A program made the translations under genes and the position numbers. A stretch of 55,346 nucleotides of DNA from NCBI GenBank assembly GCA_015058875.1, contig SVBN01000009.1, forward strand, positions 1 to 55,346. Reading direction: 5' to 3'. Shown here piece by piece: positions 29,382 through 36,617 of this stretch. The notes beneath the pieces are model-generated. The model was not told where the DNA came from. It did not search any database and saw only the letters and a program-made list of their open reading frames with translations. This stretch comes from Erysipelotrichaceae bacterium. Its GTDB lineage: Bacteria; Bacillota_I; Bacilli_A; Erysipelotrichales; Erysipelotrichaceae. Each line of letters begins with the position of its first letter. Position 1 is the stretch's first letter.

Positions 29382-29448
29382 GCTATAATAGAACTATCTT
29401 TACGCCGGATATCGTCCGGAAAACAACGATAATGAGGAGATCTTGATT

Positions 29449-31263
29449 ATGAAAATTCTGTTTGTGACGAGTGAATGCGCCCCTTATTCAAAGTCCGGCG
29501 GTCTCGCGGATGTTGCTTTTTCACTGCCTCCGGCATTGCAGAAAGCCGGAAATGAAATGCAGATCATCACGCCGTATTACAAGTGCGTCAAGCATAAGTT
29601 CGGTCCGAAGCTGGAGTTTGTGACGGACCTCAGAGTCAGACTCGGCAATGCCGATCTGTACTGCGGACTGCTGCGGGGCGTGCTGAGCGGCGTACCGGTA
29701 TGGTTCATCGACAACGAGGAACTGTTCTACCGTGATAAACTGTATGGCTATGATGATGACAAGTTCCGTTTTGCATGGTTCTCCAAGGCTGTCATCGACG
29801 TTCTGGAATACCTTGATTTTGTGCCGGAAATCCTGCACTGCAACGACTGGGAAAGTGCGCTTTCGGTAATCTATCTGAAGGACGATCAGGCAAGAAGACC
29901 GGATTACAGAAACATCCGTACGGTATTTACAATTCACAATATCGCTTATCAGGGACAGTTCGGTGCGGATGAAATGACTTCCACATTTGCCCTGGATCCG
30001 GGATGGTATGACGGCGGTCTGGCATATGAATATCAGGGGAGACATGACGTCAATCTGATGAAAGGCGCGATGCTGATGGCGGATGCGGTATCCACCGTAT
30101 CACCGACCTATGCGCGTGAGCTGCATACACGTGAATTCGGCCGGGGACTGGAAGGTGTATGCGATATCGTGGAATCCAAGATGTACGGCATTCTGAACGG
30201 TATTGATCCGGACCATTATGATCCGGAAAAGGATCCCCGCATTCCCTGCAATTTCAATGCGGATGATAAATCCGGCAAGGAAGAATGCAAGAAGTATGTT
30301 CAGGAAACATTCGGACTGAAGCAGGAAAAAAGATGGCCGCTGTTTGCGGTGGTTGCCCGCCTTGTGGAACAGAAGGGCGTGGAACTGATCCGCGAGCTTC
30401 TGCCGGTGCTGATGAAGAAGGGCGTCCAGCTGGTGATTTTCGGTCAGGGCGAGCAGAAGTATGTTGATTACTTCAACCGCTGCAGGGAGCGTTATGCCGG
30501 CCAATTCGGCTTCTCCGACAAGTATTCCGAAGAGATGGCCGCAAAGGTATTTGCCGGCGCCGATTTCTATCTGATGCCGTCCTCCTTTGAACCCTGCGGA
30601 CTTTCCCAGATGATGGCAATGCGCTACGGAACCGTACCGATCGTTCATGAAACCGGCGGTCTGAAAGACAGCGTGCGCCCGTATTCCGATTTTGACGGAA
30701 TCGGTGACGGCTTCTCGTTTGCGGAATATTCCTCCAAAGCGCTGATGCTGGCGATTGATGCCGCAATCAAGGTGTACTTCGGTGAACATGAAGTATTCGA
30801 AGTGCTGCGCGACAGATGCATGCGCAAGAACTTCTCCTGGGAAAAATCCGCGAACACCTATATCAAGATGTATTCCGATATCTGCGGCAGCGGTTTCGAT
30901 CCGAGCGTAACCTTCGAAGATGCATTCGATGCACTGAAGGTTGTATATGAAGATCTTGAGGAATCCAGAAATGCATATCTGGCAAAACAGCCGGAGGATT
31001 ATCTCAATGTCTGCCAGGTCAGAATCGAAGGACCGGGCGAAGGAACATTCTATCTGAAGTTCACCAGAGACGGCATGGAAATGGCTCCGTACAGCTATAA
31101 CGGTGCGGACGTCATGATCAGTGCAAACATTGACAACCTGTACAACATGGCAACCGGTATGGTCTCCGCCGACAGACTGTTCGTAAACGGACAGATGAAG
31201 GTGGAAGGCAATATTTCCAAAGGCGCCGAGATGAGATATCTGATCGGCAGATACAAAGACTGA
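29449..31263 (+). CDS. glgA: Glycogen synthase (GT5) with a C-terminal SCP2-like domain
   Basis: GlgA adds glucose from ADP-glucose to glycogen. Residues 1 to about 480 are a complete GT5 enzyme: KSGGLADV at 15-22, EILHCNDWESALSVIYL, FTIHNIAYQG and PSSFEPCGLSQMMAMRYGT near the end. A tail of about 120 residues follows that normal GlgA (about 480 residues) lacks. Its last 85 residues (VRIEGPGEGTFYLKF, GADVMISANIDNLYNMATG, VNGQMKVEGNI) resemble an SCP2 sterol-carrier domain. AGGAG lies upstream of the ATG at 29449; a TTG two codons earlier is less likely. No glgC or glgP is nearby. Confidence 0.9.
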   Translation: MKILFVTSECAPYSKSGGLADVAFSLPPALQKAGNEMQIITPYYKCVKHKFGPKLEFVTDLRVRLGNADLYCGLLRGVLSGVPVWFIDNEELFYRDKLYGYDDDKFRFAWFSKAVIDVLEYLDFVPEILHCNDWESALSVIYLKDDQARRPDYRNIRTVFTIHNIAYQGQFGADEMTSTFALDPGWYDGGLAYEYQGRHDVNLMKGAMLMADAVSTVSPTYARELHTREFGRGLEGVCDIVESKMYGILNGIDPDHYDPEKDPRIPCNFNADDKSGKEECKKYVQETFGLKQEKRWPLFAVVARLVEQKGVELIRELLPVLMKKGVQLVIFGQGEQKYVDYFNRCRERYAGQFGFSDKYSEEMAAKVFAGADFYLMPSSFEPCGLSQMMAMRYGTVPIVHETGGLKDSVRPYSDFDGIGDGFSFAEYSSKALMLAIDAAIKVYFGEHEVFEVLRDRCMRKNFSWEKSANTYIKMYSDICGSGFDPSVTFEDAFDALKVVYEDLEESRNAYLAKQPEDYLNVCQVRIEGPGEGTFYLKFTRDGMEMAPYSYNGADVMISANIDNLYNMATGMVSADRLFVNGQMKVEGNISKGAEMRYLIGRYKD

Positions 31264-31842: not shown

Positions 31843-33069
31843 TCATTTGCCCTGGGATTGCTCAGCCTGTAGATTACGCATGTATTCCTTGACCTTGCCG
31901 TAGTAAATGCGAAGGAATTTGTTCGCACCAGCAGTCATGTATACGTAATACTCTTTACCTTCGGAACGTTTCTTATCAATGAATTGATACACCGGATCAT
32001 CCTCCGGCATATTCTGAAGCAGGCAGCTCATGATCTGGAACAGTGTCTTACGCAGCCTGGCAGATCCGCACTTGGAGGCTTTGACGCTCTTGGCGACACG
32101 CTGACCGGAATCGTCTCTGCCGGGATCTACACCGGCAAATGCAGTGAGTGCTTCGCGGTGGGTAAAACGCATGACATCACCGATCTCAGCCATCAGCTGT
32201 GGTCCAAAGGTTGTGCCTACGCCATACATACCCATGACGACAGGATATTCCGGAAGCTGCGCAGCCAGTGAGTTCATATCCACGCGGAGTTTCTCCACAT
32301 GCTCAGATTCAAGGTTCAGCTGCTTGATACTGAAGCGGATGAGATCTCTGTAACCATTCTCCTTCGGGAGGGTTGCCACGAGGCTTTTAGAGGCACTATA
32401 TATCTCTTCAGCCTTCAGTTCATTGAAGATATAGCCGTGCTTCTTACAGAAAGCCGTGTAACGCTCTTTAAAGGCATTGAGGCTGAGTTTGCGGACACAG
32501 TCCACATGCCAGAAAGAATACGCAAAATCGACCCATTTCTCGCTTCCGTCAGCACGTACAGGAGAATCAAACAGATTGTTGACTCCGGGGTATGTCTGAT
32601 CCAAAAGAGCGATCAGGTTGGACTTGGCGGCAGTCTTCTGCTTCATGAAGAAGTCAAACTGGGTATTCATGGTTTTCAGTTGTTCACGCTTGGAATCCAT
32701 GTCTGAATACTCGCTGAGTTCGTGCCAGTTGTCAAGAGCGTACCGGGCAATCTTCTTAGCGTCTGCAGGATCTGTCTTAACTTTGCGGATCGTATTATTG
32801 CCAAAGTTCCTGATCAGATGCGGATTGACAGCTGACACAAAGATATCTGCTCTGTGCAGAGTTTCAACGATTGGCCGATGATAGCGGCCGGTACATTCGA
32901 GAACAGCTTTTGTATCACCATCCAATGATTTGATAAAAGTCACAAGATCATTCAGATCATTCTGATTGTGATACACATCGAAAGGCTTACGGATTACAAC
33001 ACCGCCGGGCTGCAGGACCGCAACGGTGCTTCTGCCTTTCGACACATCAATTCCTACTGCGTTTAACAT
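31843..33069 (-). CDS. IS110-family transposase (DEDD/Tnp_IS110-IS116)
   Basis: The 408-residue transposase has the N-terminal RuvC-like DEDD domain: AVGIDVSKGRSTVAVL, AVLECTGRYHRP and KVKTDPADAKKIARYAL. Its C-terminal Tnp_20 domain contains GMYGVGTTFGPQLMAEIGDVMRF, the AFAGVDPG motif and the serine-containing segment. Such recombinases use a bridge RNA encoded in the non-coding end of the element. The protein looks intact. Confidence 0.92.
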   Translation of the reverse strand: MLNAVGIDVSKGRSTVAVLQPGGVVIRKPFDVYHNQNDLNDLVTFIKSLDGDTKAVLECTGRYHRPIVETLHRADIFVSAVNPHLIRNFGNNTIRKVKTDPADAKKIARYALDNWHELSEYSDMDSKREQLKTMNTQFDFFMKQKTAAKSNLIALLDQTYPGVNNLFDSPVRADGSEKWVDFAYSFWHVDCVRKLSLNAFKERYTAFCKKHGYIFNELKAEEIYSASKSLVATLPKENGYRDLIRFSIKQLNLESEHVEKLRVDMNSLAAQLPEYPVVMGMYGVGTTFGPQLMAEIGDVMRFTHREALTAFAGVDPGRDDSGQRVAKSVKASKCGSARLRKTLFQIMSCLLQNMPEDDPVYQFIDKKRSEGKEYYVYMTAGANKFLRIYYGKVKEYMRNLQAEQSQGK

Positions 33070-33328: not shown

Positions 33329-33676
33329 TTACACCCTGTACTTATATAGTAGGAGGAGTTCATTGTACTTCTCTTTCCAATGAGGAAGCCTGTTCGCTGA
33401 ATAGAGTTTGTAGAATAAAGTGCTGCCTTCAAGACAGGATACCGGCACAAACTCCAGATCCAATACATTACTGAATGGCAGCGGATCCACCAAAGCAAAG
33501 AACTCATCATATTCCGGATTCCAGGACATAATATAATAATCAGTGAAGGTGGTTGCGTCCTGAACGTAGACAATCACCTTATCCGGGCCGCTTTCCGAAT
33601 CATCTGACAGAACTGTTGCCGGGACATGCCGTTTCAGCAGATTCCGGAAAACCTGAATATGTCTTGTGTACATCAT
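33329..33676 (-). CDS. Small hypothetical protein encoded inside the IS30-type element
   Basis: This frame of 115 residues overlaps the stop of the IS30 transposase by four bases (ATGA), so the two are translationally coupled. The protein is acidic with hydrophobic patches (MSWNPEYDEFFALVDPLPFSNVLDLEFV), and I recognise no domain. Most IS30 elements carry only the transposase, so this could be an accessory gene. It ends where the nested IS110 leader begins, and its original C-terminus may have been replaced. Confidence 0.55.
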   Translation of the reverse strand: MMYTRHIQVFRNLLKRHVPATVLSDDSESGPDKVIVYVQDATTFTDYYIMSWNPEYDEFFALVDPLPFSNVLDLEFVPVSCLEGSTLFYKLYSANRLPHWKEKYNELLLLYKYRV

Positions 33677-35016
33677 GATTCACTGACCTCCTGGGTGAGA
33701 GCAGGCTGATGTGAGTCATAATACTTACGCACAAGGGACTGTTTCAGTTCAACATCAGCCGGCTCAACACGGCAGATGTGAAGTTTCAGCCGGATGTCAA
33801 GGTCAGCGGAATAGAGAGAGCTGAACACATCAAATGCGGAATGGTTGTTCAGCTTTTTACGTACCAATGCATTGATGTGTGAGAACATGCAGTTAACAAA
33901 GCCCTGGTCAAGGGAATCGAAAGAAGTGCCTTTGGGGAGAATACGGCGGATATGGGTATGTGTATTTTCACATGTACCTTTCTGATACGGGCTGGAAGGA
34001 TCACAGTAGAAAACCCTGACCCCGAACTTTTCGATTTCAGAAGGATTGGAGAACTCAGCGCCGTTGTCCAGAAGCCAGACAGGCGGAAATACCTTGCGGA
34101 AGAGATCATCTCCGAAATCTTCATGAAGACGGTTGACGATCATGGTTACAGAGGCTGAATTGTTGTGGTCCCTGAGGAAACCGATCTGAAAATCAGTACT
34201 TTTCCAGGTAAGGGTAAGAATGCATTTACCGCCTTTCACGCCTTCGACAGTATCTCCCTCCAGTACTTCGGTATCGGGGTGTTCTTCCATGTATTTCTGA
34301 AAGTCTTTGTAAGTACGTCCGACACGGCATGCTTTATCCACTTTGATCTGTTTCTTTGTCCTGCGTGGTTTCATACGTACAATGCGCGGGGCATCGACAG
34401 GGCGTGCGGAAAGCATACCGGCATGGAGAAGGGTATAAGCTGTCCTTTCACTGATGCAGAGTTCATCCCGGGCGGTGACAAAGATGTGGTGGAGAGACTG
34501 ACCGAGATGGATTCTGGGAGAGATAATGCCGTCAATTTCGGCGATCTCTTCTTCGGTAAGATTCATACCGCTTCTGCATTCAGAGCGAAGCAGCCGGGAC
34601 TGAGCATCAGCCTTTTCAGCGAAATACATCTGTTTGCGGTAAGCACATCCTGTTCTCTTCTGACAGCCATTGCATACATACGGAGGCTTATCCGTAAGCG
34701 GACAATGGTATTCCTCATAGCGGCCGCATACAGTGTTGCAGTTTACCTTTCTGCAGGAACAGCATCTTTTATTTCTGCAGTTAAAAGACATGCCCGGGCA
34801 AAGACCCTGCACATCGCATTCTCTCCGTTTGGAACAGCGGTTGATATGTCCGAACCCCATCGTGTTATGTTCAACACGATACCTGCGGACTTCACGTGAA
34901 ATGGTAGATTTGCTTGTATCCAGTTCGATTGCAATCTGCTGGAAAGAATGATGAGATTCCAGCAATGTCTGAAGCCGGATACGTTTGTCAGTATCCAATT
35001 GTTTATAAGCAGCCAT
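33673..35016 (-). CDS. IS30-family transposase
   Basis: The 447-residue transposase starts with a helix-turn-helix (SFQQIAIELDTSKSTISREVRRY, about 24-46). A cysteine-rich insertion follows (about 75-125, with CCSCRKVNC and CNGCQKRTGC), then the DDE catalytic core: EGDTVEG, LLDNGAEFSNPSEIE and SSPYQKGTCENTHTHIRRILPKG. The cysteine-rich insertion resembles a zinc ribbon and marks the IS30 subgroup common in clostridia and relatives. The protein looks intact. Confidence 0.92.
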   Translation of the reverse strand: MAAYKQLDTDKRIRLQTLLESHHSFQQIAIELDTSKSTISREVRRYRVEHNTMGFGHINRCSKRRECDVQGLCPGMSFNCRNKRCCSCRKVNCNTVCGRYEEYHCPLTDKPPYVCNGCQKRTGCAYRKQMYFAEKADAQSRLLRSECRSGMNLTEEEIAEIDGIISPRIHLGQSLHHIFVTARDELCISERTAYTLLHAGMLSARPVDAPRIVRMKPRRTKKQIKVDKACRVGRTYKDFQKYMEEHPDTEVLEGDTVEGVKGGKCILTLTWKSTDFQIGFLRDHNNSASVTMIVNRLHEDFGDDLFRKVFPPVWLLDNGAEFSNPSEIEKFGVRVFYCDPSSPYQKGTCENTHTHIRRILPKGTSFDSLDQGFVNCMFSHINALVRKKLNNHSAFDVFSSLYSADLDIRLKLHICRVEPADVELKQSLVRKYYDSHQPALTQEVSES

Positions 35017-35228: not shown

Positions 35229-35318
35229 ACATAAGAAAATATCAGTTATCCGGGCCGGTTTTGTAGTATCATTTTCTTATAAACAGTATGGATTCAGATC
35301 CGACTGCAGGAGGAAAAA

Positions 35319-36617
35319 ATGAAGACAATTACGTATGAAATTACCAGCCCGCTTGGCATGCATGCACGTCCGGCCGCTTTCGTCGCACAGGCGTGTGTAG
35401 CTCTGCCTTCCCAGATCACAATCAAATGCAGAGACAAGGTTGCCAACGGTGACAACGTCCTTCAGATTCTTGCTCTCGATGCCCAGAAGGGTTCCGTTCT
35501 GGAAATCTCCGCTGACGGCGGCGATGAAGAAGGAGCACTGGCTATCATCAAGGAAGAACTGGATCACAGACTGAAGCATTATGAAAATGTAAATGTTCTG
35601 AAGATCGCATTCTTCGGTGCAAAAGACTATGACAGAATCTTCTTCAGCGAACTGGCAAGAGATATCGGTGAAGGCACATATAACTGCGATATCAAATACT
35701 TCAATACCCGTCTGACTCCTGAAACAGCCGGACTGGCAAAGGGATTCGATGCAGTATGCATTTTCGTCAATGATGAGTGCCCGAGAGCTGCAGTTGAAAA
35801 GCTGCACGAATGCGGCGTCAGACTGATTCTGCTGCGCTGCGCAGGATTCAACAACGTTGACCTGCAGGCCGCAAGAGAATGCGGTATCCGTGTTGCCCGT
35901 GTTCCGGCATATTCCCCGTATGCTGTAGCCGAACATGCAATCACGCTGGCTATGACCTGCAACAGACGCATGCACAAGGCAGTCAACAAGGTTAAGGACA
36001 ACAACTTCGCGCTGAGCGGACTGCTCGGTGTCGACCTGCACAACAAGGTTGCCGGCATCATGGGCACAGGCAAGATCGGCCAGTGCATGGCTGCTATCTG
36101 CAAGGGCTTCGGCATGACAGTTCTGGGCTGGGATGCTTATCCGAACCAGAAGCTGGTTGATGAAGGACTGCTGACATATGTCGACAAGGACGAACTGCTG
36201 TCCAGAGCTGACCTGATCTCCCTGCATGCACCCCTGATCATGGGCCCGGGCGGAACATATCATATGATCGACGCTGATGCGATCGCAAAGATGAAGGATA
36301 CAGCAATCCTGGTCAACACAGCACGCGGCGGACTGATCGATACGGAAGCTCTGATCGATGCTCTGAAGCAGGGCAAGTTCCACGCTGTCGGACTTGACGT
36401 ATACGAAGGCGAAGACGCCAACGTCTATACCGACCATTCCGACGACTATCTGGTCAACGACATCACAGCAAGACTGCTGATGTTCCCGAACGTTGTACTG
36501 ACATCCCACCAGGCGTTCTTCACAAGAGAAGCACTGCAGGCGATTGCCGCTACAACACTTGAAAACGCACGCAACTTCAACCAGGGCGTTGACCTCGGTG
36601 CCGCTGAGTGCAAATAA
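35319..36617 (+). CDS. HPr domain fused to D-lactate dehydrogenase
   Basis: Residues 1-88 are a whole HPr phosphocarrier domain with His15 in SPLGMHARPAAFVAQA. The regulatory Ser46 of Gram-positive HPr is Asn here (GDNVLQILAL). Residues 93-432 are a D-2-hydroxyacid dehydrogenase of the fermentative D-lactate type: NAD motif GTGKIG (249-254), catalytic Arg336 in NTARGGLID, Glu363 or Glu365 in DVYEGED and His397 in LTSHQAFF. There is no stop or ribosome site between the two parts, so this is one protein. GGAGG lies 7 bases before the ATG. It would make D-lactate from pyruvate, possibly gated by PTS phosphorylation (inference). Confidence 0.93.
   Translation: MKTITYEITSPLGMHARPAAFVAQACVALPSQITIKCRDKVANGDNVLQILALDAQKGSVLEISADGGDEEGALAIIKEELDHRLKHYENVNVLKIAFFGAKDYDRIFFSELARDIGEGTYNCDIKYFNTRLTPETAGLAKGFDAVCIFVNDECPRAAVEKLHECGVRLILLRCAGFNNVDLQAARECGIRVARVPAYSPYAVAEHAITLAMTCNRRMHKAVNKVKDNNFALSGLLGVDLHNKVAGIMGTGKIGQCMAAICKGFGMTVLGWDAYPNQKLVDEGLLTYVDKDELLSRADLISLHAPLIMGPGGTYHMIDADAIAKMKDTAILVNTARGGLIDTEALIDALKQGKFHAVGLDVYEGEDANVYTDHSDDYLVNDITARLLMFPNVVLTSHQAFFTREALQAIAATTLENARNFNQGVDLGAAECK

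Follow-up and report, generated by a model that had tools for sequence, protein, structure and literature searches.

The window analysed here is the whole 55,346-nt stretch of DNA from an Erysipelotrichaceae bacterium (contig SVBN01000009.1). On its forward strand it carries a gene whose single reading frame, as read from the sequence, runs without internal stops and encodes a 432-aa protein with an HPr domain at its N-terminus and a D-lactate dehydrogenase behind it (Table 1). Three Pfam domains are matched in this one frame: PTS-HPr over residues 4-79 with 70.2 bits against a cut-off of 23, so that the HPr domain is complete, 2-Hacid_dh over residues 122-423 with 99.5 bits, and 2-Hacid_dh_C over residues 209-399 with 166.2 bits. 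The phospho-acceptor histidine of the HPr domain, His15, sits in the motif GMHARPAA, and residue 46 is an asparagine. Alignment to the structure 5z21 shows Arg336, Glu365 and His397 all present in the window protein; from Lactobacillus D-LDH numbering together with this alignment we take these to be the catalytic residues. The original prediction had described one continuous protein of exactly these two parts, with His15 kept, Ser46 replaced by Asn and the dehydrogenase's catalytic Arg, Glu and His in place, and each of these observations holds.

Table 1. Features of the HPr-D-lactate dehydrogenase fusion gene, in positions of the window
Feature	Position	Strand	Basis
Whole gene, HPr-D-lactate dehydrogenase fusion, 432 aa	35319..36617	+	ATG open frame, homologues, predicted model
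Probable ribosome-binding site (GCAGGAGGAAA)	35306..35316	+	read from sequence; GGAGG at 35309-35313
HPr domain PF00381, residues 4-79	35328..35555	+	Pfam match and conservation
His15	35361-35363	+	within HPr domain
Arg17	35367-35369	+	within HPr domain
Asn46	35454-35456	+	within HPr domain
Linker, residues 85-93	35571..35597	+	poor conservation
LdhA-class D-lactate dehydrogenase, residues 94-432	35598..36614	+	
GEGTY segment, residues 117-121	35667..35681	+	comparison of fused and unfused proteins
Three-residue insert past the PL motif, residues 309-311	36243..36251	+	alignment

The join itself is real. In a protein database search the same three domains were found in all 120 homologues listed of the 7999 found, at 71-94% identity, so the pairing that the original prediction proposed to look for is present in every one of them. 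A scan of GTDB species genomes gave 584 relatives, of which the best 80 were sampled as loci; within this sample 43 loci of other genomes (L006-L048) carry the three-domain fusion, two more (L049 and L050) are incomplete, and the unfused relatives are L051-L085. The recurrence in the 120 listed homologues and the 43 other loci excludes a frameshift or a chimeric contig, and an assembly artefact of any of these kinds is ruled out by the 180 distinct fused sequences that we aligned for the conservation counts below. A stop or frameshift between the domains, named with the original prediction as one result that would undo it, is not what we find: the frame contains none and the fusion recurs across genomes. 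Two of the fused loci are themselves imperfect. L042 is interrupted by a contig end, and the fusion of a Selenomonas bovis MAG (L047:6001-7206) is missing about 31 dehydrogenase residues including the catalytic His397, which is either an assembly error or an inactive enzyme.

The fusion is frequent in the order of the window but scarce in another order that was searched. In a sample of 392 genomes of the window's phylum, a whole-genome search found a full-length match in 11; in the window's order 79 of 315 genomes pass 1e-140, 77 of them at full length (the other two, G546 and G538, show dehydrogenase residues only). For the order of the Lachnospiraceae MAG genome G396 the count is 3 of 392 genomes drawn, G396 itself being one of the three. 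Among the best 80 of 584 loci the fusion occurs in the isolates Faecalibacillus faecis, Eggerthia catenaformis, Kandleria vitulina and Eubacterium pyruvativorans, and the other hosts are mostly gut or rumen assemblies of Erysipelotrichaceae, Lachnospiraceae, Oscillospiraceae, Selenomonadaceae and unplaced Clostridia. A match was present in 2727 plasmid records, always below 60% identity; the five listed are unfused over residues 92-429, and among those not listed are five whose match spans 80% or more of the query.

To place the fusion event we built a quick IQ-TREE phylogeny from the dehydrogenase part alone (77 rows, without the insert columns), leaving out of both the tree and the fused/unfused counts L049 and L050, which are partial, and L058 and L080, in which the frame as we read it met a stop within 16 residues. 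A single branch of length 0.5 with SH-aLRT support of 100 separates the 44 fused rows from the 33 unfused rows. The tree probably reflects a single fusion event and fits the absence of later loss, for a sample consisting of the best 80 of 584 relatives less four rows, in which rarer cases may be missing. The mixture of host families inside the fused clade suggests that the gene may have been transferred among hosts. No HPr motif was found near the unfused D-LDHs at 35 loci.

Two short segments of the dehydrogenase distinguish the two sides of this branch. All 44 fused loci have residues in the GEGTY segment (117-121), as does 1 of 33 unfused loci, and the insert at residues 309-311, which sits in a loop of the NAD domain past a conserved PL motif, is found in 39 of 44 fused loci, in 0 of 33 unfused loci and in 172 of the 180 fused sequences. 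Both may be co-adaptations to the added domain. The exceptions show how far this can be taken, since the 8 of 180 fused sequences that lack the insert indicate that the fusion can do without it, and the single unfused exception indicates that the segment also exists without the fusion. That exception, L051, is a Lachnospiraceae D-LDH with 60% identity and a GEGSY segment; it is the closest unfused relative among the loci sampled and is informative on the pre-fusion state.

The pattern of conservation within the fusion points to His15. Over the 180 fused sequences the mean frequency of the commonest residue is 0.68 in the HPr domain, 0.86 in the dehydrogenase and 0.34 in the linker. Only 4 of 84 HPr positions are invariant, namely Gly13 (with a gap in one row), His15, Arg17 and Gly67. 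In HPr, His15 accepts the phosphate and Arg17 helps to hold it, and both are found in 180 of 180 distinct fused sequences, which strongly implies that His15 matters for the fusion protein. Many HPrs of Bacillota also carry Ser46, the site of HPr kinase. Here position 46 is Asn in 169 sequences, Asp in 10 and Ser in a single one (L040), even though the window's genome encodes an HPr kinase whose Walker A motif looks intact. The domain thus looks as if it has been kept for the chemistry of His15 and freed from HPr kinase. The original prediction went further and proposed that the loss of Ser46 would exclude control by HPr kinase. This agrees with the non-serine residue in 179 of 180 sequences, but the aspartate in 10 of 180 could imitate phosphoserine, so the escape from HPr kinase need not hold for the family as a whole.

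The loss of Ser46 is also not peculiar to the fusion. We surveyed the free-standing HPrs of fusion-bearing genomes at 30 loci, of which 7 had no motif match and were left unread, and 14 were read by eye for position 46. Ser46 was present in 5 of these 14 (the window's genome, Eggerthia, Kandleria, Faecalibacillus and L118), and the remaining 9 carry Arg, Gly, Lys or Gln (L003, L116, L119, L120, L125, L127, L129, L135 and L141). The protein at L003 (G000:C47:24865-25104) is a third HPr-like protein, with an 86-aa frame, the motif GIHARPAG and Lys at position 46. Covariation between the two domains (mutual information with APC over 180 sequences; Neff 31 at 80%) was dropped as uninterpretable, since a handful of columns (30, 68, 212, 377 and 414) recurs throughout the strongest inter-domain pairs.

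The dehydrogenase belongs to the LdhA class. Its closest solved relatives are the D-LDHs of Fusobacterium (5z21/6abi, F. nucleatum), Pseudomonas (5z20, P. aeruginosa), Salmonella and E. coli (5z1z), which share its fold, its catalytic residues and 44-48% identity over approximately residues 93-432; the fold comparison covers residues 92-432 only and says nothing on the HPr domain. Compared with LdhA, the fusion adds the N-terminal HPr domain of about 84 residues, the GEGTY segment and, usually, the 309-311 insert. Throughout the family the catalytic Arg is found in 179 of 180 sequences (Cys in one), Glu in 178 (Gln in two) and His in 179 (the gap being that of L047).

The fusion strongly appears to be the cell's main lactate dehydrogenase, as implied by what else the genomes encode. 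No match to PF00056 (L-LDH/MDH) was found in the window's genome, which is 93% complete, so that this absence is not absolute, and PF00056 is missing in 7 of 9 fusion-bearing genomes, the window's included. Besides the fusion, the window's genome has eight strong 2-hydroxyacid dehydrogenase matches; the seven that were compared with the LdhA class reach no more than 40% identity to it (L147 lay outside the comparison). The genome also holds four weak PF02826 matches. Among 17 2-hydroxyacid dehydrogenase paralogues from four genomes, none had a D-LDH model as its best match, and two had no match at 1e-40. In the window's order, 12 of the 79 genomes with the fusion have an L-LDH, compared with 150 of the remaining 236, and 86 genomes have neither (odds ratio 0.10, Fisher p 4e-14, a value that overstates the significance because the genomes are related). 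For this comparison the fusion set was the 79 genomes above 1e-140 and the L-LDH set comprised 162 genomes with E no higher than 1e-80; 156 of these are above the family cut-off. Within the window's genus 28 genomes have the fusion, 24 have an L-LDH and 2 have both. Such alternation is expected if the fusion does the job of a lactate dehydrogenase. It is not always the only one, given the 12 fusion genomes with an L-LDH, among them Kandleria vitulina, where a true L-LDH (TIGR01771) occurs beside the fusion.

Taken together, these patterns of conservation suggest that the phosphorylatable HPr domain probably regulates or positions the dehydrogenase. The reading that we favour, at a probability of roughly 0.45, is a fermentative NADH-dependent D-LDH of an Erysipelotrichales-type gut bacterium, to which an HPr domain, kept as a working phospho-acceptor, was probably fused once and whose activity is tuned by the phosphorylation state of His15. 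A high PEP/pyruvate ratio with scarce sugar leaves PTS proteins largely in their phosphorylated state. Enzyme I would phosphorylate His15 of the fusion from PEP, and the charge of the PTS pool, high at high PEP/pyruvate and low sugar influx, would thereby be written onto the dehydrogenase and change its activity. The unphosphorylated form, which would prevail during rapid sugar uptake as pyruvate builds up, should then be the more active one. With Asn46 the domain should escape HPr kinase, not being a substrate for it, and would report the PEP/pyruvate state alone. That enzyme I phosphorylates the domain, that this affects the dehydrogenase and in which direction it does so are inferences. With a slightly lower probability, the fusion may act as a built-in PTS sensor in which enzyme I-phosphorylated His15 switches the D-LDH, so that PEP/pyruvate sets the fermentation branch within one polypeptide, independently of HPr kinase and CcpA, in what would be the main LDH of a group of bacteria from gut and rumen.

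Other roles for the domain can be weighed against the same data. The HPr domain could be a docking tag, where binding of enzyme I places the dehydrogenase at the source of PTS pyruvate and the local drain pulls enzyme I phosphorylation forward. The surface formed by HPr residues 16-26 faces enzyme I in known complexes, and in addition to the invariant His15 and Arg17 six further positions of this segment are kept at 97% or more in the 180 fused sequences. The window's genome encodes enzyme I (a 569-aa frame), and the poor conservation of the linker would suit a loose tether no less than an allosteric joint. Docking alone, however, would not require a strictly invariant His15, pyruvate diffuses fast, and a review of the PEP-pyruvate node, in the part available, reports no evidence for larger EI/HPr/EII complexes (PMC8100219). 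We consider docking unlikely, though the sequence evidence fits docking and gating alike.

Tuning of the enzyme through phospho-His15 also has to be set against a simpler use of the same histidine, in which the domain is an extra HPr passing phosphate to particular sugar permeases and the dehydrogenase gains nothing except co-expression. The complete HPr motif with its invariant His15 would serve such a carrier, and PTS genes are abundant in Sharpea and Kandleria according to the text seen of PMC5069950. But a separate short HPr is already present in 11 of 12 fusion genomes examined (including the window's genome, where it has Ser46; in the Selenomonas bovis MAG, L047, the other HPr matches are fragments), so the fusion is no general replacement for HPr. 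In addition, the largest cluster of conserved neighbours spans 6 of 44 loci, which suggests no operon partner, and a domain tied to a 340-residue enzyme makes a poor small shuttle. An extra carrier is about as unlikely as docking.

That the HPr fold is a structural addition, contributing to stability or oligomer formation while His15 stays unphosphorylated in the cell, seems improbable. The domain is predicted to be well ordered in the full-length model built from 101 sequences, which is confident across both domains (pLDDT 92.8, pTM 0.88) and supersedes a weak earlier model from 16 sequences (pLDDT 77.8, pTM 0.60). The confident model is consistent with a defined, fixed placement of the HPr domain; yet the invariance of His15, which with Arg17 is among the four invariant positions of an otherwise freely varying domain, counts against a purely structural role. 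Least probable of all is that the dehydrogenase prefers another 2-ketoacid over pyruvate and is no lactate dehydrogenase: it reaches no NCBIfam D-LDH cut-off (VanH general 209 against 540 bits, PRK12480 188 against 579, PRK08605 185 against 356) and the 309-311 loop insert is missing from the 33 unfused relatives, but its closest solved relatives are all D-LDHs and it alternates with L-LDH between genomes.

Control of the dehydrogenase by the His15 state would have partial precedents. Like HPr itself (PtsH, PF00381), the fusion domain is complete, with a G-x-H-A-R-P motif and invariant His15 and Arg17, but it is not free-standing, and its position 46 holds Asn, Asp or, in a single case, Ser. 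Crh, a regulatory HPr paralogue of Bacillus, keeps Ser46 and lacks His15. The fusion has made the opposite choice, His15 kept and Ser46 lost (Asn46 in the window), and so does not belong with Crh. FPr/FruB and DhaM are also fusions in which HPr is joined to another protein; their partners are PTS phosphotransfer proteins, whereas here the partner is a metabolic dehydrogenase. Free HPr regulates glycolytic enzymes by binding, for instance pyruvate kinase in E. coli and Vibrio, so that PTS state governs an enzyme of the pyruvate node there as well; in the fusion the proposed regulator is covalently built in. The gating inferred in the original prediction, which would put a pyruvate enzyme under PTS control with its controller on the same chain, is the best reading of the sequences, though still a proposal.

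The fusion is a conserved enzyme family for which we found no characterisation in a partial literature search. The original prediction knew of no described enzyme of this architecture; this stands to the extent that our search of titles and abstract starts found no study of an HPr/D-LDH fusion, but it needs limiting, since some protein records are already labelled 'fused HPr family phosphocarrier protein/2-hydroxyacid dehydrogenase'. In the excerpted text of the 2HADH knowledgebase, HPR stands for hydroxypyruvate reductases and the word phosphocarrier does not occur (PMC6303947), and the portion seen of the PEP-pyruvate node review mentions HPr only within the PTS (PMC8100219). If the proposed control is true, sugar import would be coupled to a fermentation end-product without transcription or the binding of free HPr, in the D-lactate-making enzyme of some gut and rumen bacteria. 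An HPr-bearing metabolic enzyme would also be a clean test of what HPr phosphorylation does to a partner, with one protein, one histidine and one NADH assay. Sharpea and Kandleria are both Coprobacillaceae. PMC5069950 associates these lactate-forming rumen bacteria with a low methane yield of sheep, and reports a highly transcribed D-LDH in Sharpea as well as L-LDH genes in Sharpea (expressed at lower abundance) and in Kandleria.

The surroundings of the gene add little on its regulation. In 43 upstream regions one form of the Rex operator (at most 3 mismatches) was found 7 times against 1.95 expected from a mononucleotide shuffle, a second form 3 times against 1.0, and CRE 8 times against 3.3; none of these sites was found upstream of the gene in the window. 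This excess over shuffles is too weak to use, and we dropped Rex or CRE control of the fusion gene as a candidate. A scan for promoters and terminators did no better than shuffles, and searches for tRNA and Rfam families gave no match in the window. Two transposase-like genes lie just upstream on the reverse strand, at 31843-33069 and 33673-35016; one is IS110-type and the other has an N-terminal HTH_38 domain and is presumably IS30-like. The nearer of the two, at 33673-35016, starts 303 bases before the ATG of the fusion and could affect its expression. On the forward strand, a 447-aa protein at 38286-39629 matches nothing beyond the DACNH sensor domain, and that below threshold (20 bits against a cut-off of 27), and a glycogen/starch synthase (PF08323) at 29443-31263 carries a C-terminal SCP2 domain over residues 522-597, an addition that looks unusual.
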